Shown here piece by piece: positions 12,723 through 30,572 of a stretch of 32,538 bases of DNA; position 1 is the first letter of the stretch; each line of letters begins with the position of its first letter. This stretch comes from a virus. The DNA is taken from the IMG/VR virus record IMGVR_UViG_3300034198_033630, positions 1 through 32,538 of that record; one strand, written 5' to 3'. Made by a program: the position numbers and the translations under genes. A model generated the notes under the pieces. That model searched no databases, was not told where the DNA came from, and saw nothing but the letters and a program-made list of their open reading frames with translations.

Positions 12723-15700
12723 ATGGTAACAATAAGAAATGTAAATGATATTATCTTAGGCTTAATTGATTATTTTAAGCTGGTTCAGCCAGATCTAGAT
12801 ACTAAACCTGGAACTGTTGCCAGAGATTTATTTATTGATGCCCCCGCTAGCCAAATTTCTTTAATTTATGATGAGCTTGCTAACGTTTCAGATTTACAAT
12901 CTATTAAATTGGCTGCTGGGGCAGATTTAGACAAACTAGCAAAAAATTTCGGGTTGTCTAGAAAACAAGCTGTACCGGCTAATGGGGTAGCCCTTCTTAC
13001 TTTTAATTCCGTAGATGCTCCATTTGCAGTTAATTCAGGAGATTTAGTTATTACCAGTAGCGGAGTTTCTTTTCAAGTAACTACCGGAGTCTCTATTATT
13101 CCAGCTTCAGCCAACTCATACGCATCTACGGCTACTAGATTCAAAAATGATTTAGACTTCGTAGGTATTAAAGATCAATACGCGATACAAGTTTTAGTTC
13201 AATGTGTTTCTCCTGGAGCCATTGGAAATATTGGCAAATATTATATCTCTAGATCTACGACCACTGGAATCACCGGGGCAACAAATACTAATAATTTTAC
13301 TGGCGGCTCGAATCAGGAAAACGACGCTGCTTTTAGAAATAGAATTCTAGCTCTTTTTAATGGCTCTAGCATTGGCACTGCCCTTGGTTATAGAAGCACC
13401 GCCCTCGCCACTACCAATGTTATAGATGCCACGGTTATCGAGCCGGGTGACCCCTTGATGACAAGAGATGGGACCGTAGTCTCGACCGACTCTAGCGGCA
13501 ATAAAACAATTATTTCCGAGGGACAAGGCGGCAAAGTTGATGTTATTATTTTGGGGCAAAATTTACTCCAAACAATAGATACCTATATCTATCAAGATAA
13601 AAGTAATACGAATAACTCTTCCAATGATAAAAACGATATTGTCTTGGGACAAATATCCGGAGATGAAAACAAGACTGTTAACAAAAGAAGAGTAGATAAT
13701 ATAAAGAATGGGACCTTGCCGTCTCAGCCAGTCGACTCTCTTGTTACCGTAGTAGGTTCTCTGAGCGGACCTAATTTCATACCCAAATCAGTCGATTCTC
13801 TCGGAAGAGTTTCCGGAAATTATGAGCTAGTAAAAGACACGGGAGTGTATGCAGGATCTCCCTGGGGATTTGATAAGTTTAAATGGACATCAAATAAAAT
13901 ATCTGCCTTCTCCCAGGACTTAATTAAAAATAAATTTAATGGACAAGATCCATTGTCATACACTGATGTGCTGAACATTCCAAATATTCAGCAAAATATA
14001 TCTATTGTTAATGAGAATAGCGTTATTACTAGCGACAGATCAATTATTCAATTATTTCACTATCCCTTAACAAATGTAACTAGAGTATTTAATGTTAATA
14101 CCGGGGAAAGATATTTCATAGTAAATCAAAATGTAGACGGAACCGGAAGCGTCAATACAACTGGAAGAATAAAAATTTCTGGTAATACTTTACCGGTTGC
14201 CACTGATGTCCTTCAGGTAGATTATACTTGGATATTTGATTATGATCAATATTCGGATTATGATGGAAAATATTTAAATGATAATTTACGTCCTTCAATT
14301 GATAATGTTGACTGGGGTTATTGCTCAGAAATAAAAGACGAAAAAGCATTATTTATCAAAGACGCTACGGCAAATATATTTACGGGATCCGTATCTCACC
14401 CAATAAGCTCAGTAATATCTTGCAATACTTTTGAACAAAAAGACGGTATTGTCTCGGATGTAACCTCTGGGATATACGCCGGGAGAAAATCCGTTCAATT
14501 ATTAAATTTACCAGTTCCAGTTCAATCAATACAAAATATTTATTTAAAGAATACTTTTGTTGAACTATATAATACGGCTGAAAATAACGGATCTTTTACA
14601 GCCAGCACATCAGTCATAGGCATTAAAGTTGTCTATGGCGCAAATATAATTCTACCGGCAGACACTACCGCAGTAAGTGGTCAAAAAGTCTCTATTATTT
14701 TTGATAGTAAAAATACTTTTTATGTAGATAATATAAATGGCAGCTTTAATTCTAGTACAATTAATATACCGGCAAGCAATATCGTAACAGACTCTTCTCA
14801 AATTTATTTAAATGTTTCTTACATAGCCAATGTCCCTTCGCTCTACTCTTCCGCAACGACCCTGCTCCCAGCGAGCAGAGTCTCTAATGGATTTAACTTA
14901 AATAACCTGGGATTTATAAATAACAATATATTTAATAATTTAATAAGAGAGAGCTTATTAATTAATAAAAATGTTAGCAATCAGCTTTACATTGAATTAT
15001 CCATTAATGCAAATAACTTCACCCTGGGCACATCGGACATCTTATCTATTATAAGAATTAGTGATGGCGCTGTTCTTTGGGATAGCATGCATCCAGGAAC
15101 TATAACTTTTAATAATTCTAATAATAATTATCAGTTAATACTATCTAATTACAATTCTCCTTTGGAAAAAGATCAAGTAGTTACATTCTACTACTCCAAG
15201 GATAATACGAGATATCAGCCAGTTAGTTTTTCTAATGAAGTAATTGCATTACAACAATCAGAGGTAAAATCTGATGCTGATCAAAAACTATATGTTGATA
15301 TTTTAAATTTTATAGATAATGTCGGACCATTAAGATTTGAAATATTAGACCCCGCCTCCCAAATAGTTTACGGAGAAGTTCTTGATGGGTATTTGCAAAA
15401 AGATCCGTCAAACCCTCAACAGATCTTAGTTACTAGCCCGACAATGAATCTTAATTATATTACTGCCATATCTAATTATAAATTAAAAATTTATGATGGG
15501 TATAATTTTAATAACAATGGTATATTTGATATAATTAATTTTAATTCTAGTTTGCAGCAATTTACAGCGACTATTTCCCTAGAAAATATTAGTAAATCTC
15601 AAATTTCTATTACTAGGATCTCAGATAATCAAGAAGTGTGGAACGGATCTGGCACGATAAATTTTGCAAATAATAAATTAATTCTATCATCTTTTGGCAA

Positions 15701-16826
15701 TCCTAAACTATTTGATAAAGTTTTTATAAATTATTATAATTATAATAATTTAAGAACCTCTCCAACAAACATTTCTTCTTTAATTTTCGATCAAAACGTA
15801 TCTAATGGCTCGATTGCCATTACAGGAAAAACTATTTTTAAAATAAAAGATGTAATCTTTACCTCAACTGCGTCCGGGCTAGAGGTCAATTTACTAGAAG
15901 CAGTTGTTAAAGGGTTAAGTTTATCTTCTACATCTGCTATACCTTCTTCTCTTAAATTGGCTAGAATAGTTAAGCTAGAAAAAGTTCAAACTGCAGGAAA
16001 CCTAGATGAAGTTACTAATGTTATTGTTAATTATGATTTAATTAACTCAAAAATAAGAGATAACTCTTACTATATAGGAGAGTTAATCGAAAACCCTCTT
16101 TTAGATAGATTTAGTGTGATTTTGCCATCGACTAGCACGAATATGCTAGATACTTCGACTAACCCTTATCTTCCAAAAATTGGAGATAAGATGCGAGCCA
16201 CTATTTGTGTAGTTAATTCTGCGGACTCTGAAACATTAAACTATACTGCTCCTGGTTTATTATATACGGGTAAAAAATTCTTATTAATTGATAAAGTCTA
16301 TGTGAGTAGCGGGTTTAAATCAACCGCATCTTCCGTTTTAAATTTAAATACAATAAATCAACCCCCTCTTGGCTCTAGATACAAAGTATTCTACGATTAC
16401 ACTGCGCCAAAGACAAATGAAAGAATCACTATAACTTATAATTATAATCAAACAATTACGGATGCCACTTTTAATATAGAAAATAACAGACCGATAAATG
16501 CAGATGTTATTGCAAAAGAGGCAATCGCAATACTTGTAGATGTAACTATGAATATAGTGGTTAGCTCTATCTTTACTAACAGTTCATCTATAGTTGCTCA
16601 AAATGTCAGAAACATATTAACCTCTTCTATTAATTTAAATTCTTTAGGAGGAATAATTGATGGATCGGATTTGGTAAATTCTTCTTACTCTATTAATGGC
16701 GTAGATAGATCAAGAATAATTTATTTTAATAAAACAGGGGTCCCAGGTCAAGTTCTTAGCTTAACGGCTCAAAAGAACGAATACTTTGTGGCAAACAACG
16801 TTATAGTGAATATTGAGACAAGATGA
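12723..16826 (+). CDS. Baseplate J-like protein with a very large central insertion
   Basis: The 1367-residue product starts at an ATG after GGAG and GAGAAAAG. Residues 1-110 and 180-250 carry the J signature: TKPGTVARDLFIDAPASQIS, LAAGADLDKLAKNFGLSRK, then TGGSNQENDAAFRNRI and GTALGYRSTALATTNVIDAT. The C-terminal 130 residues (IAKEAIAILVDVTMNIVV through SRIIYFNKTGVPGQV) resemble the J end domain. J/gp6-type proteins form the wedge ring around the hub. P2 gpJ is about 300 residues and T4 gp6 about 660; here nearly 1000 residues lie between the two conserved ends. That insert is Asn/Ser-rich, beta-type, and includes modules shared with the next two genes (about residues 755-830, 869-940 and 945-1015). 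The final ATGA overlaps the following start by 4 bases, implying coupled translation. Confidence 0.85.
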   Translation: MVTIRNVNDIILGLIDYFKLVQPDLDTKPGTVARDLFIDAPASQISLIYDELANVSDLQSIKLAAGADLDKLAKNFGLSRKQAVPANGVALLTFNSVDAPFAVNSGDLVITSSGVSFQVTTGVSIIPASANSYASTATRFKNDLDFVGIKDQYAIQVLVQCVSPGAIGNIGKYYISRSTTTGITGATNTNNFTGGSNQENDAAFRNRILALFNGSSIGTALGYRSTALATTNVIDATVIEPGDPLMTRDGTVVSTDSSGNKTIISEGQGGKVDVIILGQNLLQTIDTYIYQDKSNTNNSSNDKNDIVLGQISGDENKTVNKRRVDNIKNGTLPSQPVDSLVTVVGSLSGPNFIPKSVDSLGRVSGNYELVKDTGVYAGSPWGFDKFKWTSNKISAFSQDLIKNKFNGQDPLSYTDVLNIPNIQQNISIVNENSVITSDRSIIQLFHYPLTNVTRVFNVNTGERYFIVNQNVDGTGSVNTTGRIKISGNTLPVATDVLQVDYTWIFDYDQYSDYDGKYLNDNLRPSIDNVDWGYCSEIKDEKALFIKDATANIFTGSVSHPISSVISCNTFEQKDGIVSDVTSGIYAGRKSVQLLNLPVPVQSIQNIYLKNTFVELYNTAENNGSFTASTSVIGIKVVYGANIILPADTTAVSGQKVSIIFDSKNTFYVDNINGSFNSSTINIPASNIVTDSSQIYLNVSYIANVPSLYSSATTLLPASRVSNGFNLNNLGFINNNIFNNLIRESLLINKNVSNQLYIELSINANNFTLGTSDILSIIRISDGAVLWDSMHPGTITFNNSNNNYQLILSNYNSPLEKDQVVTFYYSKDNTRYQPVSFSNEVIALQQSEVKSDADQKLYVDILNFIDNVGPLRFEILDPASQIVYGEVLDGYLQKDPSNPQQILVTSPTMNLNYITAISNYKLKIYDGYNFNNNGIFDIINFNSSLQQFTATISLENISKSQISITRISDNQEVWNGSGTINFANNKLILSSFGNPKLFDKVFINYYNYNNLRTSPTNISSLIFDQNVSNGSIAITGKTIFKIKDVIFTSTASGLEVNLLEAVVKGLSLSSTSAIPSSLKLARIVKLEKVQTAGNLDEVTNVIVNYDLINSKIRDNSYYIGELIENPLLDRFSVILPSTSTNMLDTSTNPYLPKIGDKMRATICVVNSADSETLNYTAPGLLYTGKKFLLIDKVYVSSGFKSTASSVLNLNTINQPPLGSRYKVFYDYTAPKTNERITITYNYNQTITDATFNIENNRPINADVIAKEAIAILVDVTMNIVVSSIFTNSSSIVAQNVRNILTSSINLNSLGGIIDGSDLVNSSYSINGVDRSRIIYFNKTGVPGQVLSLTAQKNEYFVANNVIVNIETR
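14988..15240 (+). repeat. RxSDG-W protein module, copy 1 (in baseplate J)
   Basis: This codes for about 80 residues centred on SIIRISDGAVLWDSMHPGTI, followed by YQLILSNYNSPLEKDQVVTF. The pattern, an Ile-rich strand, R-x-S-D-x3-L/V-W, then a strand reading LILS and a hydrophobic pair before Tyr, recurs at 15555-15770 in the same gene and at 19220-19480 in the next gene. Similarity is at protein level only. Edges are approximate. Confidence 0.6.
15319..15545 (+). repeat. DPSNP/FDII protein module, copy 1 (in baseplate J)
   Basis: About 75 residues run from LRFEILDPASQIVYGEVLDG through KDPSNPQQI to NNNGIFDIINFNS. The same order of landmarks (strand, DG-x-L, DPSNPxQ, Lys-Leu-hydrophobic strand, NN-x-G-x-FDII-x3-S) occurs at 25894-26106 inside the dockerin region of the fibre gene. 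The DNA has diverged, so the similarity is not recent duplication. Edges are approximate. Confidence 0.6.
15555..15770 (+). repeat. RxSDG-W protein module, copy 2 (in baseplate J)
   Basis: This second copy in the J insert reads ISITRISDNQEVWNGSGTI and then KLILSSFGNPKLFDKVFINY. It aligns strand for strand with copy 1, with Asn replacing Gly after SD. It directly follows the DPSNP module, so three small modules stand in a row. Confidence 0.6.
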
Positions 16827-19800
16827 GCAACCTAAGAGTAGAATCAGTTACAGTTGTTGATAGCTCTAATTTAATAGCTAGTTTTACTGAAAAATTAACT
16901 AATAATTTAGATGTTAGCAACATTCAAATTTTATCTCAAACTTTAAATGTTCCAGATTCTAAAGCTCTTAAAGTCCAAGTGGTCAATAATGTCTTAAAGA
17001 TTTATTGCCAGCCTTTGACTCCTTATGCCGCTTATGATATCGTGTTTCGCTCAACTTCTAATCACCCATTTCAATCTTTAAATGGTGAGTTTAAATTACT
17101 GGAAGATAATGTAGGCAACTTAAAGATAATCTTAGGTCCAGAAGAGCCCGATAATATCATTAGAACTTATTTAGTAAATTTCTTAAGAGAAAATATTTAT
17201 AATGTAGAAGACCCAACTACTGCAGTTTACAAAGTTATTGGTTCTTTTGTAAATAGCATATCTAAATCCTTATATGATGTGCGTCAAGTAAAAAATGAAA
17301 ATTATTTAAGTAACACTATTGAAGATGAGCAAAAAACAAGAGGCGGTGGACCTTTTGATCGGTTAGATCAAGAAGGCGCCTATGAAATTATTAGGGTTGG
17401 ACTTACCCCTTCTGGAAATAAAGTCTCTGGTTTTTATAGCGTAGACACTTTTCCATTCTATCCGTTTACGCTTCAATCAACTCAAGTTACTAGAGAGCTT
17501 TTAACTCCAGACTCTGTAGATGTGGACGGCAAATTTAACATCAATAGTTTAATTTTAAATTTAAATTCTTCACCTGTAATTAAGCTAACAAAATTAACTT
17601 TTATATTGAGTTCCCTGCCTTCAATATACGAATATGATATTCAGACTCTTGGGTATCAAATAAAAGAAAATAAATATGATCAGGATTTTGGATTTAAATA
17701 TTTATTGTTAGAAGATAATCAAATAAAGCTAAACGAGCAGATACTTCAAGATCCTTCTTTTAAATTAGACGCTATTGTCAGAATAGAGTGCTCTTATCAA
17801 TATAAAGATGTTGGTAAAATAATTTATTCTGATTCCTTAAGAGTAGAAGAGGTGCTAACGTCTAGTAGAGAAACGCTTCCATCAATTATAAATATTTTTA
17901 ATTTAAAGCACGCCCCAATTGTAGATTTAAATAATGACGTTCCTCAATTAGGCGGGGTTACTTTTACCGATCCTAACAGCATTAACGTTAATGCTAAGCA
18001 TCCCGCCTTCCTATATGAATCTCCCTTTAGATTAGAGGCTCTCCCATCTTTTCCTGGAGCTTATAGCGTAGACTATACCACTGGAAGAGTGTATGTTTAT
18101 GGCGCAGACGGCTCTAAGTCCGGAACAGGGGCATCTCCTCCCGTCGCCACTTATAATTATAGATTTTCCTATCAAGATGAAGTAGACTATGTGTATGATT
18201 CAGATACTAAAGATTTAGTTTCTTTACCAAAAGGTAATTTAAGAGACAACTCTGCATTAATTAATTTTAGCTATGAAAAAGTATTGATTCCAAATAAAGA
18301 TTATGTGGCGGAAGTCCATAATGAATCATTGCAAGAGAGAGTCGAGAATAGGTTACTTAATTTAGGGACAATACAAACCACGAACTCACCTGTAACTAAT
18401 GTCTTTAGAATCTACAATGAAACTTCGGGTGAGCTGTACTCGATTAATCGTTGGAACGATAATAAAGTTTATTTTGATTATAACATAGCTCCAAGAATAG
18501 ATGATGAAACTTCGGAAAGAGTTACTTTTGAGGCGGTCTTAAATGAGTTCTTGTTTGTTAATAGCAGCTCTATTAATCAAAGCTCTCTTAACATTTTTAA
18601 AATTTTATTAAATAATAACAGTTTAATAGCTTCAACAGAAGATTGTATCGGGTCTTCTATTAATTCCAGTGCAAGCTTTTCCAATAAAAGTATCTTTCAA
18701 AAAGAAAAATATTTTCAAAAAGATTCAAATATTCAAATTAACTTAAATAATTTAAATAATATTGGAGAATACTGTATCGATTATGTTAACGGGATAGTCT
18801 ATTGCGCAGTAAGTGCAAATCAAAATAATGATATCGGCACTATTTCTTATCGAAAAAATAATATCATTACAGCGAAAAAACATATCATAAGCGTAAATGA
18901 CATTTATTATCAAGTAAACCCTCTTAATCCAAAAAATAAAAGTTTTACTTATTTGTCTTTTGGTGACAATAATATTTTCCCAGAAAATCTTCAATATTCC
19001 GATGAGCTATATTACAATAATGAACAGACAAAGCCGTATCAAATTAATAATGGCGTAATAGGTTATTTTGATCAATTATCTTTTTATGGGAAAGTATCTG
19101 AACAAATAAAATATGTTAGAGGTGTTTTTGAGTATCAGGACTTAGTTAATAATTTAAACCCAATTAATTTTTCTAATTTTTCTTCTTTTAGCGGAAATAC
19201 AATAACTGTTTCTCCAATCCCTCAATCTCTAATCACTCAAGTCAATGATGACGGGGTTAATTTATACATACCTTTACCAGAAAATACCAGCTACCTATCT
19301 CCAAATATTTCTTATGATATTAGCATCATCAGAAATTCAGACGGAAAACAGCTCTGGGATTCTGGCGGACAAATTGTAACCGGAAATCTTGCAAAATTAA
19401 TTCTATCGGGAGTAAATTCTCCCGCCGCAGGGCAGATAGTTAATCTATCTTACACTGTATCCATAAACGATCTCTCTAGAGTCGTAGTAGATTATAACAA
19501 AGGCGACCTTTACGCAGACTATACTTATTTACTTGATGAAATTGTTATCAGTTATGAGTACGGAGATAACGTAATTGACTTTAGACAAAGCAATGCCGTT
19601 TCCGAAAACACTACTTACTATGTGTCATATCGAGTAGGCGCCCTCAGAGACGCTTTATTGAAAAATTTCGGATCCTTATTACTTATTCCGGAATTGAATG
19701 TTTTTAATGTTGATCTGGACAGAGAAAGATATCGAGATGCGTTAACCGGCGCCCTATCTTCTTTTTTGAAAGGTCCAACAATTAGTGGCATTAAGAACTT

Positions 19801-22800
19801 GGTAAATAAAATAACACACATCGATCCTCAAATTATCGAGTCGGTATTCAATAGCTGGTCTCTTGGGAGTAGCTTACTTTATCCAAACCAAATAACTACC
19901 GAAGGAAACTTTCAATTAATACCAGTTAAGTTCGGAAATGGAGCATTGATAGACTCTCCTTCTCAAAGAATTTCTTTACCACGCTCCTCGAATCTTTCCA
20001 TTAATCAAGGAACTTTCGAAACATGGATTTTGCCGCAATGGGATGGCATAGACAATAATGCAAAATTAACTTTTAAAATATTAAAGGACAACTCTCCTGT
20101 CGCACAAAATTCTATTTTTATCGGAGATAGAGAGCATCATCCATTACTAATAAATAATTCTTTTACAATAGATAAGAATTCTAATTCTTCTGGAATCCCT
20201 CAGAAAAATAAGAACGGCGTATTTATCTACTATGCTCCAGATATTTCTGGATTATTTAATAGATGGTACGTTGACATTATTGATAATACTGGAAATGGTC
20301 AAAAATATTCTGTTCAAATAAATTCAGATGGTAATTTTTATGATGTTAAAAGTGCAAGTAGCGGCGCTGACATTACAACTACAACTACTAACAATAAAGT
20401 TGCAATTAAAATAAATAATTTAAAGGATCAATCTCAAATATTTACTTTTATTTCTGATCACGAGTATTATATACTTGATTCCGGGGAGAAAGAAAAGAAT
20501 AGACTCTCTATTTATAAAGATATTGCGGGATATTTAAACTTTAAAATTATTGATAAGTTTAAAACAGTTTATGTGGTTAGTGCAGACGTATCTAATTGGA
20601 AGAAAAATGAAAAGCATTTTATCGGTGCATCTTGGAAATTAAATTCTGGAAATCATCGAGACGAAATGCATCTATTTATAGATGGATTTGAAGTCCCGAA
20701 TATAATTAAATATGGTCAAAAATTACTTCCTTTCCCCCATGAAAAATTTAGAACCGTTAATCCTGAAACCTTAGTAGGATCCTCTGATAAAGATATTGTT
20801 GGGAGTGATGATCTAGCCACTTCTGCGGGCAGCAATGTTGTTAATTCTTCAATAAATTTTGGAAATTACAATATTAATATTGGAGATTTAATTTATATTG
20901 AAGATGGATTGTTTAATCAATCCGGATATACCATTGACGCCATTAATGGTAATGATCTTACTCTAGATCAACCAATGCCTGTCACGTTAAGTAATTTAAA
21001 ATTTTCCGTTAATAAAGCTAGCTATACTCTAAAATTAGATGCCAATGTTTATCCGAGCGTTGCGGTTTCAACTCTTAGTGTGATTTATGAAAATAATGAT
21101 CTAAGTACTTCACTCAGCAACAATGTCGTCACTTCGGCTTCATCTAATTTCACCCAAATAAAACCCGGATACTTGCTTAGAATATTGGATGGCGGATTTG
21201 AATTAATTTATAATATTTTAAATGTAAACGGGCAGCAATTAACACTAGACCAAAAAATGCCAGTTACATTAAGCGGTCTAACCTTTTATATTTACTCTAA
21301 TATAGAAAAAGAAATTCCTGGAGTAAAGGCATTACGCCCATCTTATCAACTGTCTTCAGATAATTTATTCAATGCTACCTTGACCATTACCAATGATGTT
21401 CTTGCAAAAGATTTGGTATTATTAAATACTTTTGGGTTAAATCATCGTAAAATTAAGCAGCTTCACTATGTTTGGGGGAATCAGATAGAAAATGTAATAC
21501 CGACCAGACTACCACCGCCAGTATCTTTGAATGACGTTAAAATTACCAGAGTAATCTCTTCAAATAGCGTAGTTAATTCTCATAACTCTACGGTAATTTC
21601 TGGAATACTGCATTATCTATCTACCGACAATCCTCCGTCAAACTCTGAAAAAGGTAGAACTTTATCTGCAACTATTTCAGGAACAAATAATGTAGATTTC
21701 TCTACTCCCGTTCAAATTATTCTAGGTGGATATGATTACGATTATAACATAATTAGCGAAACTATTTACTTTGACGATTACGGAAAATTAGATTTCTCTA
21801 ATAAGTTTATTACCGTAAATCATATTCAAGTAATTTGCAAGCCATTTAATCTCTTAAAAGATTGCTTAGCATTTGAAATAAAAGAAAAATACCCTATTAC
21901 TTATGCCGAGGATAGTTCACTGGTTCCGCTTATTCGATATAGTTATCAAATGAGCACCGGTCAAACATTAAGAAAAACGGGAGAAAATATTGTCACAGAT
22001 GACAATAACTTCTTCTCTTCTTTGGATAAGGACAATATCTTAATTGTACAGCAGCCATTGGCAGCGGCAGGAATCTATAGAATATCAGACGTTAGCCAAG
22101 ATCACAAGAGTTTAATTCTAGATTTGTCAATCCCCTTGGGTGATTTTACCGATGGGTACTATAAAGTATTAAATGTCACGGATTATAGAACTGGTTTTCA
22201 AAATGGATTTTTCGTACTAGAACAAACTCAATTCGTCGGAGAGCCTTACTTCTTAAATGTTGGTTACTACGAATTTGAATATAGTACTTACACAACTATA
22301 AAATTTGACCCTCTCGCTAATGAAGAAATCTATCTTGGTTGTGATATTTTAAAATCTCATCAGTCTAATGCGGCTCTTGATCAGGTAAAAATATATTCAA
22401 TACAGTTATCGGATACTCGTGTAGGTCAAGTAATTCCATCCAATCAAAGATCTATCACTAAAGATTATAATTCTTTAATTCCATTAAGGTCTGATATTAA
22501 CACTTTGACTCTAATTGATTTTAATTTTTATCCTTTTGTTAATTCTGCGTCTTTCTATGTTAAAAACATTGGAGGTAACTTCATTCAATCGGACGTATCC
22601 ATTAATAGTAATTTTCAAAACTCTATCTCGTTAGTTAACAATCCTGTTATTTTAGATAATTATGGAGTACTAGATACCAAAAAAGATGGCACAATAGAAT
22701 TTTGGGTTAACCCACTCTATGATTCCGCCAAAGATCCAAATTATAGGTATTATTTTGATGCTTACGGAGCTAAGGTGGTTGAGACGGTCAGCTTAAATAA

Positions 22801-23926
22801 TTCAGAAATTAAATTAAGTGAGCCAGTAAGCAATATCATTAGCGTTACATTAAAAAACGGAGATCCTAATATAAATTATTTTGCAGGAGGCAAGCTGGAG
22901 ATAGGGCTAGACAACGCAATTGCAGAGGTGACCACCAGCAACAATAACAGCTCTGTTAGTGTTAAAAATCAAATCCTACAGGTAATTTCTGTAGTTGTGG
23001 TAGGAGATCTATCTAGAGTTAATTATTTTGAAAATGGAGCAGTTAGTCTGGATAAGAAAACAATTTATCTAGGAAAACCTCTGCCTTTAAATAATGCAAA
23101 TTTAATTGTTACCTATAAGCCTATAAATGGATCAAATAATATCTTAAATTATCAAACTATTTATTTAAATAAAAAATTGCCAAAAGACAATACTCCTGTA
23201 ATAGTTAAATTTATTCCCAAGGGATTCAACGGAGATAGGTTATCTATTTATAAAGATCCTGGCGGATATTTAAATTTCGATGTAACTGCTTCGGGTAAAA
23301 ATTATAATATAACCTCTCCTATATACTGGTCTCGAGATACCTGGCACAGAGTTAAGGTTAGCTTTAAATTCAATAGTCAAGTAAACTCGGATGAAATAAG
23401 AATGTTCGTTGATGGGTACGAAAGATCTAGTTTGTTAATTAATGGTCAGGTTAATTTTGGAGCTTTCTCCGATCTCGGAGCGGGGACTGCGGGCATCTCT
23501 ATTGGAAACCAAAATATTTCTTTTAAAGATACCATTAACCAAGTTTATTTAGGCGCTGATTATTCTTTGAACAGCGAGGCGGATTGCCTAATAGATAATT
23601 TAAGAATATCTAATATTTCTAGACCCATCTATAGTCCGTATGGGGAGCCACTAGATCCTAACTATTCTTCCAATTTAGAAGTCGCTTTCCCGGTAACAAC
23701 TGACCTATATACTACATATCTCTTAAATTTCGATAGTTCTGCCACTTTAAATGAAGATTTTGCCTTTATTGTAGCTAACCAAGGCTCCGCTTTTGATTTT
23801 ACTGTAAATATTTTTGATTCTTTTGGTATAGTTAGCAGTAGCGATACGGTTAAGCAGATTTTAGAAAAACTAATATACATGCTTAAGCCAGCTAATTCTA
23901 AAGCATATCTACAGTACTATCAATGA
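16823..23926 (+). CDS. Giant tail-protein-I-like / LamG-domain host-recognition protein
   Basis: The 2367-residue product starts within the ATGA overlap with the J gene. Residues 1-160 include a beta domain and the helix EEPDNIIRTYLVNFLREN. At about 945-1015 a helical block (VSYRVGALRDALLKNFGS, then YRDALTGALSSFLKGPTISG) resembles the baseplate-proximal part of gpI-type tail proteins. Two LamG/concanavalin-like folds follow. The first (about 1034-1299) has ISLPRSSNLSINQGTFETWI, RLSIYKDIAGYLNF and MHLFIDGF. The second (about 1889-2272) has GTIEFWVNP, RLSIYKDPGGYLNF, IRMFVDGYE and VYLGADYSLNSEADCLIDNL. The closing strand of the first fold (IYLGCDILKSHQSNAALDQV) appears only at about 1833. LamG folds commonly bind glycans, so this probably touches the host surface. 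Position after J matches P2 gene I. The ends of the protein and the exact gpI relation are uncertain. Confidence 0.75.
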   Translation: MSNLRVESVTVVDSSNLIASFTEKLTNNLDVSNIQILSQTLNVPDSKALKVQVVNNVLKIYCQPLTPYAAYDIVFRSTSNHPFQSLNGEFKLLEDNVGNLKIILGPEEPDNIIRTYLVNFLRENIYNVEDPTTAVYKVIGSFVNSISKSLYDVRQVKNENYLSNTIEDEQKTRGGGPFDRLDQEGAYEIIRVGLTPSGNKVSGFYSVDTFPFYPFTLQSTQVTRELLTPDSVDVDGKFNINSLILNLNSSPVIKLTKLTFILSSLPSIYEYDIQTLGYQIKENKYDQDFGFKYLLLEDNQIKLNEQILQDPSFKLDAIVRIECSYQYKDVGKIIYSDSLRVEEVLTSSRETLPSIINIFNLKHAPIVDLNNDVPQLGGVTFTDPNSINVNAKHPAFLYESPFRLEALPSFPGAYSVDYTTGRVYVYGADGSKSGTGASPPVATYNYRFSYQDEVDYVYDSDTKDLVSLPKGNLRDNSALINFSYEKVLIPNKDYVAEVHNESLQERVENRLLNLGTIQTTNSPVTNVFRIYNETSGELYSINRWNDNKVYFDYNIAPRIDDETSERVTFEAVLNEFLFVNSSSINQSSLNIFKILLNNNSLIASTEDCIGSSINSSASFSNKSIFQKEKYFQKDSNIQINLNNLNNIGEYCIDYVNGIVYCAVSANQNNDIGTISYRKNNIITAKKHIISVNDIYYQVNPLNPKNKSFTYLSFGDNNIFPENLQYSDELYYNNEQTKPYQINNGVIGYFDQLSFYGKVSEQIKYVRGVFEYQDLVNNLNPINFSNFSSFSGNTITVSPIPQSLITQVNDDGVNLYIPLPENTSYLSPNISYDISIIRNSDGKQLWDSGGQIVTGNLAKLILSGVNSPAAGQIVNLSYTVSINDLSRVVVDYNKGDLYADYTYLLDEIVISYEYGDNVIDFRQSNAVSENTTYYVSYRVGALRDALLKNFGSLLLIPELNVFNVDLDRERYRDALTGALSSFLKGPTISGIKNLVNKITHIDPQIIESVFNSWSLGSSLLYPNQITTEGNFQLIPVKFGNGALIDSPSQRISLPRSSNLSINQGTFETWILPQWDGIDNNAKLTFKILKDNSPVAQNSIFIGDREHHPLLINNSFTIDKNSNSSGIPQKNKNGVFIYYAPDISGLFNRWYVDIIDNTGNGQKYSVQINSDGNFYDVKSASSGADITTTTTNNKVAIKINNLKDQSQIFTFISDHEYYILDSGEKEKNRLSIYKDIAGYLNFKIIDKFKTVYVVSADVSNWKKNEKHFIGASWKLNSGNHRDEMHLFIDGFEVPNIIKYGQKLLPFPHEKFRTVNPETLVGSSDKDIVGSDDLATSAGSNVVNSSINFGNYNINIGDLIYIEDGLFNQSGYTIDAINGNDLTLDQPMPVTLSNLKFSVNKASYTLKLDANVYPSVAVSTLSVIYENNDLSTSLSNNVVTSASSNFTQIKPGYLLRILDGGFELIYNILNVNGQQLTLDQKMPVTLSGLTFYIYSNIEKEIPGVKALRPSYQLSSDNLFNATLTITNDVLAKDLVLLNTFGLNHRKIKQLHYVWGNQIENVIPTRLPPPVSLNDVKITRVISSNSVVNSHNSTVISGILHYLSTDNPPSNSEKGRTLSATISGTNNVDFSTPVQIILGGYDYDYNIISETIYFDDYGKLDFSNKFITVNHIQVICKPFNLLKDCLAFEIKEKYPITYAEDSSLVPLIRYSYQMSTGQTLRKTGENIVTDDNNFFSSLDKDNILIVQQPLAAAGIYRISDVSQDHKSLILDLSIPLGDFTDGYYKVLNVTDYRTGFQNGFFVLEQTQFVGEPYFLNVGYYEFEYSTYTTIKFDPLANEEIYLGCDILKSHQSNAALDQVKIYSIQLSDTRVGQVIPSNQRSITKDYNSLIPLRSDINTLTLIDFNFYPFVNSASFYVKNIGGNFIQSDVSINSNFQNSISLVNNPVILDNYGVLDTKKDGTIEFWVNPLYDSAKDPNYRYYFDAYGAKVVETVSLNNSEIKLSEPVSNIISVTLKNGDPNINYFAGGKLEIGLDNAIAEVTTSNNNSSVSVKNQILQVISVVVVGDLSRVNYFENGAVSLDKKTIYLGKPLPLNNANLIVTYKPINGSNNILNYQTIYLNKKLPKDNTPVIVKFIPKGFNGDRLSIYKDPGGYLNFDVTASGKNYNITSPIYWSRDTWHRVKVSFKFNSQVNSDEIRMFVDGYERSSLLINGQVNFGAFSDLGAGTAGISIGNQNISFKDTINQVYLGADYSLNSEADCLIDNLRISNISRPIYSPYGEPLDPNYSSNLEVAFPVTTDLYTTYLLNFDSSATLNEDFAFIVANQGSAFDFTVNIFDSFGIVSSSDTVKQILEKLIYMLKPANSKAYLQYYQ
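19220..19480 (+). repeat. RxSDG-W protein module, copy 3 (in the LamG protein)
   Basis: The core reads YDISIIRNSDGKQLWDSGGQ, then AKLILSGVNSPAAGQIVNLS. It matches the two copies in the upstream J gene in the R-x-S-D-G-x2-L-W-D core and in the LILS strand, so the module is shared between adjacent genes. Confidence 0.6.
19925..20720 (+). other. LamG-like domain 1 (main body)
   Basis: Residues about 1034-1299 of the 2367-residue protein carry the jelly-roll landmarks GTFETWI, a long beta region, RLSIYKDIAGYLNF, a Trp before the HFIGASWK strand, and HLFIDGFEVPN. The usual last strand, with LG-x-D and LD-x-V-x-IY, is about 530 residues later, so the fold appears interrupted. A calcium or glycan site is likely for this family but was not traced here. 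Confidence 0.6.
20830..21010 (+). repeat. Beta-repeat with LDQPMPVTLS, copy 1
   Basis: This encodes INIGDLIYIEDGLFNQSGYT, then ING-x-DLTLDQPMPVTLSNL. Near-identical landmarks recur at 21115-21300, and a weaker copy lies at 21975-22170. The repeats fill the segment that separates the main body of LamG 1 from its last strand. Confidence 0.6.
21115..21300 (+). repeat. Beta-repeat with LDQKMPVTLS, copy 2
   Basis: This encodes IKPGYLLRILDGGFELIYNI and then NGQQLTLDQKMPVTLSGLTF. It matches copy 1 strand by strand, with the MPVTLS run identical in protein sequence. Confidence 0.6.
21975..22170 (+). repeat. Divergent third copy of the beta-repeat
   Basis: This encodes LDKDNILIVQQPLAAAGIYR, then ISDVSQDHKSLILDLSIPLG. 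The order (D/GD-x-hydrophobic strand, loop, G-x-Y-x-I, then a L-x-LD strand ending in Pro) matches copies 1 and 2, but identity is low. Confidence 0.35.
22490..23640 (+). other. LamG-like domain 2 with internal insertion
   Basis: Residues about 1889-2272 run from TLTLIDFNFYPF to VYLGADYSLNSEADCLIDNL and RISNISRP, the usual end of a LamG/Concanavalin-like fold. Between GTIEFWVNP (about 1960) and RLSIYKDPGGYLNF (about 2139) sits an insert of about 150 residues (1983-2136) with its own half-repeats (NGDPNINYFAGGKLEIGL and GDLSRVNYFENGAVSLDKK). Confidence 0.65.
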
Positions 23927-23935
23927 GAGTAAAAG

Positions 23936-26900
23936 ATGACTAAACGCAATCCAGTTTCAGCCATGCAAAATGTATGGTTCGACGCAGAGCAGGTAGATGC
24001 CTCAGATCTAAATTTAGAGCAAAATTACAACAATTCTATTCAATCTGCTATAATTAATAATCAGTTTGGGACTGGGATATTGGTAGATGCTTTGCAGGAT
24101 AGAATTTTATTTAATTCAGATGCCACAATAGGATTGCTTGATGGCACAATAATTGAGGCTCAAAATCAACCTTCAGATAATAATTACGGAAATCAATTAG
24201 AAATATCTCTTTCAGAATCAAAAACTGGCGGGAAAAGATCGGTAAAAATAGGAATTATAGGTTTAGATTTTCAACAAAATCTTCAATATGAGACCTTTTA
24301 CTTTAGAGTGAATGAATCTCAAATTACTAAAAAGCATTATACTGCTGTTTTACAAATATTAATTAATGATTTTAGAGGGGAATCCAATCAATCTTTTAAT
24401 TTAGGTGGCAAGATTCTTATCAAAGAAGCTAAGCCTTATTCTTTATCAAGAAGCGCCTCTATGGTGGCTCAAACAACTCAGCCAAATTTATTTTTTAGAG
24501 ACTTCTTTTCCTCCTTATATTCATCTCCGCTAGATTTATTAAGAGCTGGACTGCCTTATTATAATATTGATAATTTAAATATTAGAATGGCTGAGAGAGA
24601 TAATAAAATTATTAATTTTAATGATGTTACTACTCAAATAGGTCAAAAATTCCAAGCAAAAACCAATAATATTCAAAAAATTACTTTATTATTAGCCGCT
24701 ACCAATCCCGATGCAGTTGTAGATGATTATAAATGGAATGGGGAAATTGTTGTTAGCGTTTATCCTCTACAAACTGCGCTTCAGTGCCCTACGGATATAC
24801 CCCCACAAACATTAATAGATTATTCTCCCTCTCCAGTTCCGTTGGCTCAGATTAGTTTTAGCTACGACACCTTGCTTGCCGCCGGAACACAATTAAATAC
24901 CGTTCCTCAGCCTGTAGATTTTATTTTTAGCAATACTGCTTTAGGAGGAAGTTATTCTATAGTTCCTGAAAGCTATTACGCTTTTACCATTAAGCGCTCC
25001 GGCGCCGCTGATAAGGGCAATATACTGATTTCTACCGGAAATAAAGAGCTATCTAACTCTAAATTAACAGTATTTAATGGAACTCTTTGGGTAGACTTAG
25101 TGGATGAAGATTTATGGTTTAATATAGCTACTGATGCGGCTAAGGTGACAGACGGGCAAGCTTATGTTTCGGGTAATGGCGTAACTCTTCCAAAAGTAAC
25201 CGAAGATCTTAATACAGGAGCTACGGTAGATTATTGTTTAGATAATTTATATTTTAGTGGAGCAGATACTTTTAGGGGTGTTGTTTTTGCCGAAACAGAA
25301 AAGAATACGCCTGTTCAAGATTTAAGAACCGGCAACCTGATTTTCTCTAGACAGCAAAATGTTCCAAATGTACAGTTATTAAGTTCATTAGATATCGCCA
25401 ATTTATCTCAGACTACCGACCCTCTTTTAATTGGAGCTATTGCAGATAAGAATATTAAGTTTTTTGACGCATCTAGCGATGCTAATTTTAACGCCAAATT
25501 ATATACTTTCTCTTTTATTAATAATGAAATTTTCATTAAAATAGTAGAAGATCCTTCTGATCCAAAGTATGATGAGAGTGTTAAGTTCTTGCAAACTCAA
25601 TTATTAACTGGAAATCTAACTAAGATTAAAATTTTCCCAGATTTTTCTAGTAGCCCAAGTATTTATTATCGAGTAGCTACTGCAGAAATAATTTCCATGC
25701 TTTATGGTGACGTTAACGGTGATGGGGTTGTTAATGACGAAGATTTTAATTTAATTAACACTTATCTTGGATTTAATTTCAATCAGACTCCACCCTTACA
25801 TTCAACTTTTAATCCGGACATTGTTAACAATACAGTTACTTTTGTTAATGGCTACTCTTCTTATCAGTATCCTTTCGGAAATGCTACAAATATAATTTTC
25901 CAAGTCGTCAACGTTGAAAATAATAAGATAATTGCTTCTGGCGCAGACGGTATCTTAGTCCCCGATCCCTCTAATCCAAGACAAGCTAATTTCTCTAGCG
26001 CATCAGTAGATTTCTTTAATTTATCTCCCGCTGTTGGTGGAAACAAATTGCTAATATTTAATAGCGGCAATGCGGCAAACAATGGCGGGTTCGATATTAT
26101 CGGAATCGATAGTATGTTAGACATTCTAACTATTAGAAAAATTTTATTAAACTCTAAATCTATTCCAGAGCTGTTTAGATCTGATCTTAACGAAGATTAT
26201 TTAGTAAATGCTCAGGACGCTGATCTACTAAATAAGTATATAAATAAAGAGTCATTTATCCCTCCAGTAGATCCAGTATTTAATAAAATAGGAAAACCAT
26301 TCAATGTTATTAAATTAACTCTTGAAAAATATCAAGTTAGCGCCTCAAGCCTGGATAGAAATGATGATTATTTTACTTCTTTAGCCACTCGAAATACAGA
26401 TATTCATTTGCTAGGAGATGTCTTTGTAGATGACGCTCTATTGCAGGGGAGAAATATCTCTGCGTTACCAGCTAATTTATTTTTTCAAAAACAATTCTCC
26501 TGGGAAGATTATCTAGTAGTTAGTAACTCTAAGAATAAACTCGTTCCTACCATTTTTGATAATGGTCAGGATACCATCATCTATAGCAAAGATCTAAATG
26601 GAATTCAGGTCGAAACTTACAATATGCGACCCGAATTTGATCCGGGCAGAGTAGATACGTTTGTTCCTGATAATTTAATTATCGGACCTGGCGGAGAAAT
26701 TGTTAGAGAGAATGGGGATTTTTATAAGATAGATTTTGAAGTTGGAACTATAATTTTAGAAATTCCTCCAGGAATGATTGGGTCAGAAAGAGATATTAAT
26801 GTTTTTGATGATTTCGTCAGAGACTATAACGGCAATGGTATAACTAGATTAGGCTTTCCGGCAATGAGATTTGCCGACTTCTCTACTGTTCAATCAGATG

Positions 26901-27874
26901 CCCTATCTAAAGATCAACTCAGATTATCTGTATCGATACAGTCATTTTCTCCCAATACCAATGGAATTGACCCGAATGGAATACAAGGAATTATCGTAGA
27001 CGGCAAAATAGGCGTTAGTATTGATTATGCTTCTGGAATAATTACTCTTAATTTTACTAATTTATACCAGGACCCCGTTCTCTCCACTCTCACTACCAAG
27101 GTTCAAATTAATGTCTTTTTGAAAAAAGGCGGATTTAACAATAAGCCCTTGTATGTTGACTCTACTAAGGTATCTAATTTAATGAAGTTAATTAGTATCT
27201 TTAGCGGACCAGTTGTCGGAGGTGCTTCTGCCCTTGTCGACTTAGAAACTGATGTTGTTGGTGTTTTGCCAATACTTCATGGCGGAACTGGCTTAGATGC
27301 TGTAGGCGCATCTGGAACTGTTTTAATGAGTAATGGAGCCTCATTAAGCTATCAATTCGCAATTAATAGCACTTCCGGAGTTTCCGATGCCAATAAACTA
27401 ATAAAGACAGACAGTAATGGATTGCTTAGCCCCTCCTTTTATTATAAAAATCCAGTTTATATTTATGGCGTGTCGGGATATGTTCAAAATTCAATATCAA
27501 ACTCTCAAATTATAGCCGCTTTCCCATTTTCTTTTAATTCTTTTATTTTACAAGACATTAAAGATATTCGCCTTGAAGTTGTCGTACAATCTTTTTCTGG
27601 AGATGTTGCTCAAATTACAATGCAAGACGATGGAGGTGACATTTATTTAGATGGAAATAGTTTTTATTTGGGAGATGATACCGGAACTCAATTTATGTTA
27701 TTTAAGAGCAAAGATCTAAAATCTCAGTTAATAAATTATCCGTCAGACAGTATCTGCGTATTGCGACTTAATTCTTCTGTTTCTGGAAACGCTATTTGCA
27801 CAATGGCTCGATTAGTAATCACTTATAATAATCCTGATAATGGAATAGATTTCCAATCTCTTCCTCCTGTTTGA
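23936..27874 (+). CDS. Tail fibre protein with split dockerin-like domain
   Basis: The 1312-residue product begins MTKRNPVSAMQNVWFDAEQV after a GAGAGTAAAAG leader; this N-terminus resembles baseplate-attachment ends of fibres. Residue 590 onward has a textbook dockerin calcium loop (GDVNGDGVVNDEDF, D592, N594, D596, N600, D603). A second, DLNEDYLVNAQDADLL, starts at D750. About 130 residues, including the module shared with the J gene, lie between them. Near the C-terminus, LPILHGGTGLDAVGASGTVL and MSNGASLSYQ form the typical fibre motif (GGTG-L, G-x-VL-x-SNG). The last 190 residues are a beta-rich tip. Position after the LamG gene corresponds to fibre gene H of P2. It probably contacts the host surface; the receptor is unknown. 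No separate fibre-assembly chaperone gene follows in the window. Confidence 0.75.
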   Translation: MTKRNPVSAMQNVWFDAEQVDASDLNLEQNYNNSIQSAIINNQFGTGILVDALQDRILFNSDATIGLLDGTIIEAQNQPSDNNYGNQLEISLSESKTGGKRSVKIGIIGLDFQQNLQYETFYFRVNESQITKKHYTAVLQILINDFRGESNQSFNLGGKILIKEAKPYSLSRSASMVAQTTQPNLFFRDFFSSLYSSPLDLLRAGLPYYNIDNLNIRMAERDNKIINFNDVTTQIGQKFQAKTNNIQKITLLLAATNPDAVVDDYKWNGEIVVSVYPLQTALQCPTDIPPQTLIDYSPSPVPLAQISFSYDTLLAAGTQLNTVPQPVDFIFSNTALGGSYSIVPESYYAFTIKRSGAADKGNILISTGNKELSNSKLTVFNGTLWVDLVDEDLWFNIATDAAKVTDGQAYVSGNGVTLPKVTEDLNTGATVDYCLDNLYFSGADTFRGVVFAETEKNTPVQDLRTGNLIFSRQQNVPNVQLLSSLDIANLSQTTDPLLIGAIADKNIKFFDASSDANFNAKLYTFSFINNEIFIKIVEDPSDPKYDESVKFLQTQLLTGNLTKIKIFPDFSSSPSIYYRVATAEIISMLYGDVNGDGVVNDEDFNLINTYLGFNFNQTPPLHSTFNPDIVNNTVTFVNGYSSYQYPFGNATNIIFQVVNVENNKIIASGADGILVPDPSNPRQANFSSASVDFFNLSPAVGGNKLLIFNSGNAANNGGFDIIGIDSMLDILTIRKILLNSKSIPELFRSDLNEDYLVNAQDADLLNKYINKESFIPPVDPVFNKIGKPFNVIKLTLEKYQVSASSLDRNDDYFTSLATRNTDIHLLGDVFVDDALLQGRNISALPANLFFQKQFSWEDYLVVSNSKNKLVPTIFDNGQDTIIYSKDLNGIQVETYNMRPEFDPGRVDTFVPDNLIIGPGGEIVRENGDFYKIDFEVGTIILEIPPGMIGSERDINVFDDFVRDYNGNGITRLGFPAMRFADFSTVQSDALSKDQLRLSVSIQSFSPNTNGIDPNGIQGIIVDGKIGVSIDYASGIITLNFTNLYQDPVLSTLTTKVQINVFLKKGGFNNKPLYVDSTKVSNLMKLISIFSGPVVGGASALVDLETDVVGVLPILHGGTGLDAVGASGTVLMSNGASLSYQFAINSTSGVSDANKLIKTDSNGLLSPSFYYKNPVYIYGVSGYVQNSISNSQIIAAFPFSFNSFILQDIKDIRLEVVVQSFSGDVAQITMQDDGGDIYLDGNSFYLGDDTGTQFMLFKSKDLKSQLINYPSDSICVLRLNSSVSGNAICTMARLVITYNNPDNGIDFQSLPPV
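25700..26250 (+). other. Dockerin-like calcium-binding domain, interrupted
   Basis: Two EF-hand-like loops at residues 592-603 and 750-761 of the fibre protein carry the dockerin pattern (D-x-N-x-D-x3-N-x2-D). In the second loop Asp follows Glu where Gly is usual. Classic type I dockerins are about 60-70 residues with loops about 35 apart; here the loops are about 158 apart because a foreign module lies between them. Confidence 0.65.
25894..26106 (+). repeat. DPSNP/FDII protein module, copy 2 (inside the dockerin region)
   Basis: Residues about 653-725 of the fibre protein run from IIFQVVNVENNKIIASGADG through PDPSNPRQA to NNGGFDIIGIDS. They align with residues 869-940 of the J protein. The module occupies most of the space between the two dockerin loops. 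Confidence 0.6.
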
Positions 27875-27919: not shown

Positions 27920-29008
27920 GTGAAGATAAAAATACAGCAATTTCTGGGCGCTAATTATAGTTGGGCAATAGTCGGTCAAAATCTCGCTCGTGCCTTTATT
28001 AAGAGCGGGCACGAAGTTGATCTATTTAGTACAGACGGAGTTCAGTATCTACCGCCAGACCTAAAGCCATATTTAAAGTCTATTCCTGAAGCAGAATATC
28101 CAATGCAGCTTAGTTATACTGCTTTTAGAAATTTTCCTAATTATTTAAAAAATGGAAATAAGAACAGATTCGGAATTTGGACTTATGAATTTGATGGTAA
28201 AAATAGCTTACCTTCGGGATTTGCTAAAAACTATAAAGAGTGCGACCAGATACTTCCACCCTCCCAATTTGCAAAACAAGTCTTTATCAATTCTGGAATC
28301 CCAGAAAACCATCTAACTGTAGTTCCGCACGGAGTTAATGCAGAGGAAATTCTCTCAGCCCACCCATACCCATTAAAAACAAAAAAGAATTTTAAGCTAT
28401 TCGTTAACGTTGCTCAAGTTCATAAAAGAAAAAATCTTTTTGGATTATTAGAGATGTTTGGGAGGGCTTTTACTAAGACAGATGATGTTTGTTTAGTAAT
28501 TAAAGTTCATGAGAAAAAGCCAACTCAACTTTTTGAGGTAAATTTCCAAGAAATATTTAATGATTTTAAACAGAAATACAAAAATCATGCAGAAATAGAA
28601 ATAATTAGGCAGTTCGTTCCCAATATTTATTCTCTTTACAAATCTTGCGATGCTGCTTTTTCCGCTTCGTATACCGAGGCATTTGGGATGACGGGGCTAG
28701 AGGCTCAGGCAGCCGGGTTATTCAATATCGCCCCAAATTATGGAGGGTTTTTAGATTTTTTAAATGAAGAAAATTCTTTATTAATTGAGGGAAAAGAGTT
28801 TTTTGTTAAGCCAGACATGGTCTATTGGTCCTACCAACCAGGAAGCAAAGCTTTCATGCCTAACATTGACTCTGGTGTAGAAAAATTGAAACATGCTTAT
28901 GCGAATAAAGACTCTCTAAAGGAAAAAGCTCAATTACTAGCCCCCTCTATATTGGAAAAGTATTCTTGGGACAAAATAGGCGATCAAATTCTAGGTTTAG
29001 TAAAATGA
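27920..29008 (+). CDS. GT4-family glycosyltransferase
   Basis: This 362-residue protein is read from a GTG at 27920, placed 8 bases after AAAGGG. The fold is GT-B. The N-terminal half begins with a short strand and QNLARAFIKSGHEVDLFS, and the C-terminal half carries LFVNVAQVHKRKNLFGLLEM, the glycosyl-transferase-1 signature. The GT4 EX7E motif is clear as EAFGMTGLE at about residues 253-261, followed by AQAAGLFNIAPNYGGFLDFL. Such retaining enzymes transfer a sugar from a nucleotide donor; donor and acceptor cannot be read here. It opens a group of sugar genes directly behind the fibre genes and shares a 4-base ATGA overlap with the next gene. Glycosylation of virion proteins or alteration of host surface glycans are both possible. 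Confidence 0.85.
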   Translation: MKIKIQQFLGANYSWAIVGQNLARAFIKSGHEVDLFSTDGVQYLPPDLKPYLKSIPEAEYPMQLSYTAFRNFPNYLKNGNKNRFGIWTYEFDGKNSLPSGFAKNYKECDQILPPSQFAKQVFINSGIPENHLTVVPHGVNAEEILSAHPYPLKTKKNFKLFVNVAQVHKRKNLFGLLEMFGRAFTKTDDVCLVIKVHEKKPTQLFEVNFQEIFNDFKQKYKNHAEIEIIRQFVPNIYSLYKSCDAAFSASYTEAFGMTGLEAQAAGLFNIAPNYGGFLDFLNEENSLLIEGKEFFVKPDMVYWSYQPGSKAFMPNIDSGVEKLKHAYANKDSLKEKAQLLAPSILEKYSWDKIGDQILGLVK

Positions 29009-29738: not shown

Positions 29739-30572
29739 ATGCCGGAATCACCAGAGCTAAAAACAAGTTGTGACCATTTAAGAAAAATTATTTGCGGGAA
29801 AACTATCATTAATTCATTTTTTTCTAAAAATGGAAGATATAGCAAGAAAATTCCCGAAAATTATAACTCAACTATGCAATGCTCCGTTCTTGATATTAAT
29901 GTTAAAGGAAAATTCATGTATTGGTCCTTGAGCAATGGTCAATATATGTTTTGCACCTACGGAATGACTGGTCAATGGGAAAATAAAGAAGACAAGCATA
30001 CTTGTTTTACTCTTCAATATGTTGATAAGTTCGAATCAATAGATCAAGCAATTTCCGATTTTAAATTTTTGTATTTTAATGACCCTCGACATTTTGGTAC
30101 AATTAAATTTGTTAACTCAAAACAAGAGTTACTTGATAAGCTCGATTCTCTTGGCTGGGATCCTTTGTCAGAAGATATTTCTTCAAAAATAGAGTGGTTA
30201 AAAAATAAAATAAATAAATCCACTCCTATTGGTCAGATATTAATGGACCAATCTATTTTCTGTGGAGTGGGCAACTATATTCGTGCTGAGGCTTTATATC
30301 GCTCTAGGATTAGTCCCTGGAAAAAAGGAAAAGAATTAACTAATTTAGAATTAATTTCTTTATGTGATCATATTTATAATGTTATGAATGAGTCATATCA
30401 AGCCCAGGGAGCCAGCTTCTCCACTTATCAGAATGTTGATGGTAATGCCGGTAAATATTCTTTTAATTTTCAGGTTTATAGTCAAAAAAAGGACCCGCTC
30501 GGATATAATATTATAAGAGAAAAAATGGGTACCCGAACTATTCACTGGTGCCCGGAAATGCAAAGAGCTTAA
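29739..30572 (+). CDS. Fpg/Nei-family DNA glycosylase with degenerate zinc finger
   Basis: The 277 residues match the family's usual length. The N-terminus MPESPELK supplies the catalytic Pro2 and Glu3. NVKGKFMYWSLSNG with the following YGMTGQW matches the conserved lysine loop and MTG region. FNDPRHFGTI is the family's R-FG patch, and QSIFCGVGNYIRAEALYRSR is the helix-two-turn-helix that binds DNA. The enzyme would remove oxidised bases and nick the strand by beta/delta-elimination. The C-terminal finger (FQVYSQKKDPLGYNII and GTRTIHWCPEMQ) keeps the arginine-bearing turn but only one of four zinc cysteines, so it is probably a zincless or broken finger, as in NEIL1-type members. SD GGAGG precedes the ATG. 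Lying among sugar genes is odd; it may protect phage DNA or be a late moron-like gene. Fpg versus Nei cannot be settled by eye. Confidence 0.85.
   Translation: MPESPELKTSCDHLRKIICGKTIINSFFSKNGRYSKKIPENYNSTMQCSVLDINVKGKFMYWSLSNGQYMFCTYGMTGQWENKEDKHTCFTLQYVDKFESIDQAISDFKFLYFNDPRHFGTIKFVNSKQELLDKLDSLGWDPLSEDISSKIEWLKNKINKSTPIGQILMDQSIFCGVGNYIRAEALYRSRISPWKKGKELTNLELISLCDHIYNVMNESYQAQGASFSTYQNVDGNAGKYSFNFQVYSQKKDPLGYNIIREKMGTRTIHWCPEMQRA

Follow-up and report, generated by a model that had tools for sequence, protein, structure and literature searches.

How does a phage tail protein accommodate a dockerin whose two calcium loops lie 158 residues apart? The question is raised by P0001, a protein encoded in a stretch of viral DNA of 32,538 nucleotides (IMG/VR record IMGVR_UViG_3300034198_033630, positions 1 to 32,538), hereafter the window. 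The initial annotation had noted this distance between D592 and D750 and proposed that the dockerin is interrupted by a module also present in the baseplate protein J. Spacing and coordinates are correct, and the split is strongly supported by 30 uninterrupted and 34 interrupted orthologues as well as by two AlphaFold models.

A dockerin within a phage tail gene cluster

The dockerin of P0001, a fold otherwise familiar chiefly from bacteria that degrade cellulose, sits in a cluster of phage tail genes, together with J, sheath-initiator-like and other structural genes. Family searches with the window ORFs identified sheath-initiator-like, baseplate J and LamG-containing proteins upstream of P0001. 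A cellulosome component would carry its dockerin on a secreted plant-polysaccharide enzyme or on a scaffoldin, and P0001 is neither. Several neighbouring genes were also annotated. The 2367-residue protein encoded between J and the fibre (window 16823-23926) has a LamG-like domain (PF13385) at residues 2123-2219, near its C-terminus. The ORF immediately 3' of the fibre (window 27920-29008) appears glycosyltransferase-like, as judged by eye from its translation, and an Fpg/MutM-like formamidopyrimidine-DNA glycosylase (PF01149, PF06831, PF21025) is encoded just 3' of the tail genes (window 29739-30572).

Relatives of P0001, about 50% identical, were found in huge-phage contigs. Neither the fibre nor the uninterrupted type of fibre described below had a match among named phages in 50,697 phage records, and the only matches of J among named phages were to baseplate wedge proteins, from Bacillus phage G and from mycobacteriophages (28-30%). 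One scan of cellular genomes returned a single short match in Prevotella (query residues 240-290), which we put down to chance or to the dockerin alone.

Two calcium loops separated by an inserted segment

Loop 1 (D592) lies in GDVNGDGVVNDED, which starts at residue 591, and loop 2 (D750) lies in SDLNEDYLVNAQD, which starts at residue 749. The elements of this region are as follows (window coordinates, strand, feature and basis).

23936..27874, +: baseplate/fibre-like tail protein P0001, 1312 aa, with interrupted dockerin (ORF, gene context, relatives)
25667..25702, +: predicted beta strand, residues 578-589, leading straight into calcium loop 1 (DSSP on AlphaFold model)
25709..25744, +: calcium loop 1, residues 592-603, DVNGDGVVNDED (PF00404 positions 1-24; conservation in 64 fibres)
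25736..25762, +: predicted dockerin helix 1, residues 601-609 (AlphaFold model/DSSP)
25772..26158, +: inserted segment, about residues 613-741, helix 1 to helix 2 (absent in 30 orthologues)
25895..26143, +: beta module proper, residues 654-736, homologous to J and tail sheath modules (sequence, profile and structure searches)
26159..26182, +: predicted dockerin helix 2, residues 742-749 (AlphaFold/DSSP; equivalent helix 86-92 in the uninterrupted model)
26183..26218, +: calcium loop 2, residues 750-761, DLNEDYLVNAQD (PF00404 positions 12-57; conservation in 64 fibres)
26210..26242, +: predicted dockerin helix 3, residues 759-769 (AlphaFold model/DSSP)
26297..26329, +: predicted beta strand after the dockerin, residues 788-798 (AlphaFold/DSSP; equivalent strand 124-134 in the uninterrupted model)

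Both halves pass the Pfam Dockerin_1 cut-off, with E = 8.3e-7 (profile positions 1-24) and 5.7e-7 (profile positions 12-57). In addition, a profile of residues 470-870 made from 34 sequences retrieved dockerins of known structure, one of which, that of Xyn10B (2ccl), aligns with both halves. As judged from the sequence, the window thus has the two loop-helix motifs of PF00404, with putative ligand residues at positions 1, 3, 5 and 12. In loop 2, Glu and Tyr stand in place of Gly at positions 4 and 6, so that calcium binding at this loop is not assured. The contiguous arrangement of about 60-70 residues with a short linker that is typical of PF00404 is not seen in the window but is present in 30 more distant orthologues.

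Interrupted and uninterrupted orthologues

Scans of viral contigs yielded relatives from contigs of up to 481 kb, with about 40-54% identity across most of their length. The insert-bearing set comprises 34 distinct sequences including the window, plus one near-copy; all keep both loops, 136-174 residues apart, and none of these closer sequences lacks the insert. A second, distant set (within L129-L162) was reached with a profile led by the most divergent members. Here, 30 distinct orthologues align on either side of the insert in the profile alignment and skip the insert itself. They offer the comparison with insert-less fibres that had been proposed for this locus: in each, the dockerin at this position is unbroken (GDVNGDGVIDDSDITLISTLIGESLYFSSTQQKIVDGYINTLDLLRADLDGDGYITSNDADLLSLYVNK in L131, for instance), with Dockerin_1 matches at E <= 0.01 in 30 of 30 and a best value of 9.8e-16.

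In an unrooted tree of the 64 fibres, calculated on 905 columns from which the insert region had been removed, one branch divides the sequences with insert from those without (SH-aLRT 100). This separation of the two states by one branch of an insert-free tree indicates, at the sequence level, that a domain was inserted into the dockerin linker in the window's clade. Gain of the insert is also the simpler direction, since ordinary dockerins are without such an insert. Five uninterrupted dockerins (L156, L153, L158, L159 and L161) have a longer linker, with about 8 to 15 extra alignment columns near the module site, which suggests that this site is tolerant.

A beta module shared by fibre, J and tail sheath

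As had been proposed, the space between the loops holds a module that is also found in J. The inter-loop segment of the fibre matches J residues 872-948 with 35% identity over 78 aa (E = 1e-8), and profile-profile comparison of the two modules (hhalign) gives 99.5% probability (E = 8e-23). The copy in J is located as follows.

15333..15572, +: module copy in baseplate J, residues 871-950 (sequence and profile matches to the fibre module)

Three elements mark the core of the module: DG close to the start, a central S..F and, towards the end, NG.(F/Y)(D)I. DPSNP, which had been taken as part of the shared signature, is private to the window phage: relatives of J do not have it, and relatives of the fibre mostly have NPxD. 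The codons of DPSNP differ between the fibre and J copies in the window. Because the motif is peculiar to this phage and its codons differ, it is neither a hallmark of the module nor the trace of a recent copy. The sharing of the module with J stands; DPSNP as its signature does not.

The sharing extends beyond J. Across 27 phage records, the fibre module profile matched the fibre, J and a protein of 820-950 residues, identified by family searches as the tail sheath. Judged by the alignments, fibre, J and sheath modules have a common sequence profile. Insert phages carry two tandem copies in the sheath. Among 11 uninterrupted-dockerin records searched, seven gave one match, in a sheath-sized frame, four gave none, and none gave a match in fibre or J; a related sheath copy is hence already present in most of the insert-less phages. 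In the insert clade, the three earliest-branching phages have a J without the module, and the region that holds it is missing from J of all 30 uninterrupted-dockerin phages. The window contains no further copy elsewhere.

In a tree of 94 module copies, sheath copy 1 and the single sheath copies are set apart from sheath copy 2 together with the fibre and J copies (support 96/98); its 86 columns do not resolve the sequence in which sheath copy 2 and the fibre and J copies arose. We give slightly less than an even chance to the scenario of a travelling module that came from the tail sheath, was duplicated into the dockerin linker of the fibre and later into J, and turned the dockerin into a calcium-locked display scaffold. 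In L202, whose fibre and J are 100% identical to those of the window, the sheath gene is flanked by ORFs that look HNH endonuclease-like by eye (277-927 and 3808-4407, both on the minus strand).

No PDB sequence and no convincing Pfam family matched the module, and Foldseek comparison of its fold with the PDB gave no significant match. A PilZ-like identity was considered and rejected, as the Foldseek matches were not significant. An Ig-like beta sandwich likewise found no convincing Pfam, PDB-sequence or significant PDB-fold match.

Predicted structure of the split dockerin

In an AlphaFold model of window residues 470-870 (pTM 0.77), pLDDT is 92-97 for the dockerin parts and 80-97 for the insert. 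The chain runs from strand 578-589 through loop 1 and helix 601-609 into the insert with its beta strands, and continues with helix 742-749, loop 2, helix 759-769 and strand 788-798. The model of the uninterrupted L131 fragment has the same order without the insert, plus an extra short linker helix. Its first 24 Foldseek matches in the PDB are without exception dockerins (probability 1.00 for 22 of them, 0.98 for the other two). The window model had no significant dockerin match in the PDB, where no match bridged the insert and 8x39 was found at probability 0.66 (E = 0.63). Against viral structures, it matched, at probability 1.00 in each case, a phage protein named 'Dockerin domain-containing protein', a baseplate protein resembling J and a tail sheath protein. 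For the arrangement helix 1 - linker/helix 2 - helix 3, secondary structure and pLDDT of the window model agree, and the fold match comes from the uninterrupted orthologue only.

Helices 1 and 3 of dockerins with known structures run antiparallel, and the calcium ions lie on opposite sides (PMC8063739). Loop 2 would therefore lie near the end of helix 1. Consistent with this arrangement, DSSP assigns isolated bridge residues in both models at position 23 of repeat 1 and position 7 of loop 2 (in the window residues 614 and 756, in L131 residues 69 and 99); the window model has one more, residue 617, and the DSSP output names no bridge partners. From the bridge residues at the same two dockerin positions in both models, we infer that the halves fold together. 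The models suggest that the window halves form one dockerin with the module looped out, in agreement with the arrangement proposed by the initial annotation: pLDDT, pTM and DSSP concur, the prediction does not show the loops in separate, unrelated domains, and the structural match to a dockerin is found with the orthologue model.

Two unrelated calcium loops, or two degenerate dockerins, one represented by loop 1 alone and a second with MLDILTIRKILL as its helix 1, would be a different arrangement. In the Pfam alignment, residues 727-770 correspond to dockerin positions 12-57, and this helix-1-like stretch is part of the match. However, residues 730-734 are modelled as a beta strand and not as a helix. 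The stretch is part of the module and is missing in the 30 uninterrupted orthologues, in which loop 1 to helix 3 are contiguous; its equivalent also occurs in the J and sheath copies, which have no dockerin at all. We therefore rejected MLDILTIRKILL as helix 1 of a second dockerin and regard the two-domain arrangement as extremely unlikely. We retain the single interrupted dockerin in what follows.

Conservation of ligand and recognition positions

In all 64 fibres, loop 1 has Asp at positions 1 and 12, its glycines and Val2, and positions 3 and 5 are always D or N. In loop 2, ligand positions 1, 3, 5 and 12 are acidic or amide in nearly all fibres, and Asp at position 12 is invariant (64/64), as is the Arg before the loop (R748). 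These dockerin positions are invariant despite overall fibre identity falling to about 50% and below.

The dockerin might also be a vestige, recruited long ago, which has lost calcium binding and tolerates an insert in a functionless domain. Degeneration of loop 2 in some members, such as GNITGN in L032 and, in the window, E at position 4 and Y at position 6, is what such a history could leave, but it fits poorly with loop 1 glycines, positions 1 and 12, R748 and Asp12 of loop 2 that are unchanged in every fibre at such low overall identity. We consider a vestige very improbable.

Positions 10 and 11 of dockerins are cohesin specificity determinants in cellulosomes (PMC8063739). In the 64 fibres, their entropy is 2.6-3.3 bits, compared with 0-1.4 for ligand positions 1, 3, 5 and 12. 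This bears on a third alternative, a true docking module in which the dockerin would bind a cohesin-like beta sandwich of the host surface or of another virion protein and the insert would tune or display it. Dockerins are known for tight cohesin binding (PMC5864761, PMC8063739), the dockerin-like pattern is kept in helices 1 and 3 of the 64 fibres, and a lineage-specific partner could co-vary with positions 10 and 11. On the other hand, recognition positions 10, 11, 17 and 18 are highly variable, the domain lies inside the protein with beta strands on either side, and the search for a cohesin-like partner that had been called for found none in 48 phage records, many of them fragments. We thus hold a docking module to be unlikely. 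Mimicry of a host surface-assembly signal, as suggested in the initial annotation, has no positive evidence in its favour, and the cohesin-recognition positions are unconserved.

The tripeptide DGY occurs 11 to 16 times above composition expectation in the long ORFs of L003-L010, L038-L053 and L129-L162 (near-duplicates were removed, related sequences otherwise not down-weighted). Because its codons are varied, a protein-level cause is suggested. In the window, the excess is only 2.6-fold, with 5 occurrences.

A probable structural bracket that displays a module

Sequence comparison establishes the homology, the insertion relative to uninterrupted orthologues, the ligand conservation and the module copies in sheath and J. 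With the conserved ligands, the variable positions 10 and 11, the lack of a cohesin in the phage records and the internal position of the domain, flanked by beta strands in the window and L131 models, we favour an intramolecular role. The split dockerin is likely an internal calcium-stabilised structural bracket, whose two halves make one fold and display the module. On this reading, it is not a cellulosome-type docking tag. The suggestion of a calcium-stabilised joint between fibre parts in the initial annotation is the best-supported of its functional proposals, given near-invariant putative ligands and an internal domain.

Mechanistically, one dockerin-type domain (loop 1, helix 1, helix 2, loop 2, helix 3) would stand between two beta strands of the tail protein. 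In the window's clade, a beta module of about 85 residues and roughly 20-45 further residues were inserted between helix 1 and helix 2. According to the models, both halves may still fold as one dockerin and carry the module outward as a side domain. The dockerin would then act as an internal bracket, rigidified by calcium, that orients and holds adjacent beta domains in the fibre or baseplate, and the dockerin linker would be a tolerant site for displaying a tail-surface module. By analogy with extra tail sheath domains, for which a role in adhesion or virion stability has been proposed (PMC9230969), the module probably serves adhesion or virion stabilisation.

All 64 compared fibres carry the dockerin, and 34 of the 64 have a whole extra domain in its linker. 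The split dockerin is a natural test of what a dockerin requires for calcium-dependent folding, apart from cohesin binding. With its copies in sheath, J and fibre, the module allows the spread of a domain to be traced between proteins of a single virion.

Comparison with known systems

Type I dockerins (PF00404; Xyn10B 1ohz/2ccl of C. thermocellum, ScaB 4uyp/4uyq and the double dockerin 8x39) have the same two loop-helix calcium motifs, ligands at 1, 3, 5 and 12 and three helices, and the contiguous phage orthologues match them by sequence and predicted fold. Unlike them, the phage domain is internal in a tail protein and without a cohesin partner in the phage records searched, and in the window's clade the linker holds an inserted domain where about a dozen residues are usual.

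The additional beta domains of tail sheaths (PMC9230969) are likewise extra beta domains on large-phage tail proteins. Here, in contrast, one module family is found in the sheath, in J and inside a dockerin, and an Ig-like fold is not supported by the searches. Gp02 of phage vB_EcoS_HSE2, a 'dockerin carbohydrate binding module' (PMC5967307), is another structural protein of a phage whose annotation uses the term dockerin. Its residues 519-624 were modelled on PDB 2wz8, the structure to which that paper gives the name dockerin carbohydrate binding module, and the protein is tailspike-like; no pair of calcium loops like that of P0001 is described.

Our literature searches found no paper joining dockerins with huge or jumbo phages, nor one in which a dockerin is described as a structural component conserved in phage tails. 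The closest entry is UniProt A0A6J5RS54 (BFVD), a 'Dockerin domain-containing protein' of an uncultured Caudovirales phage, with 41% identity to the window fibre over the modelled region; the searches returned no paper on it, and it is known here as a database name. Given this entry, the presence of a dockerin is itself not new; the contribution made here is its interruption, its conservation and the distribution of the module.
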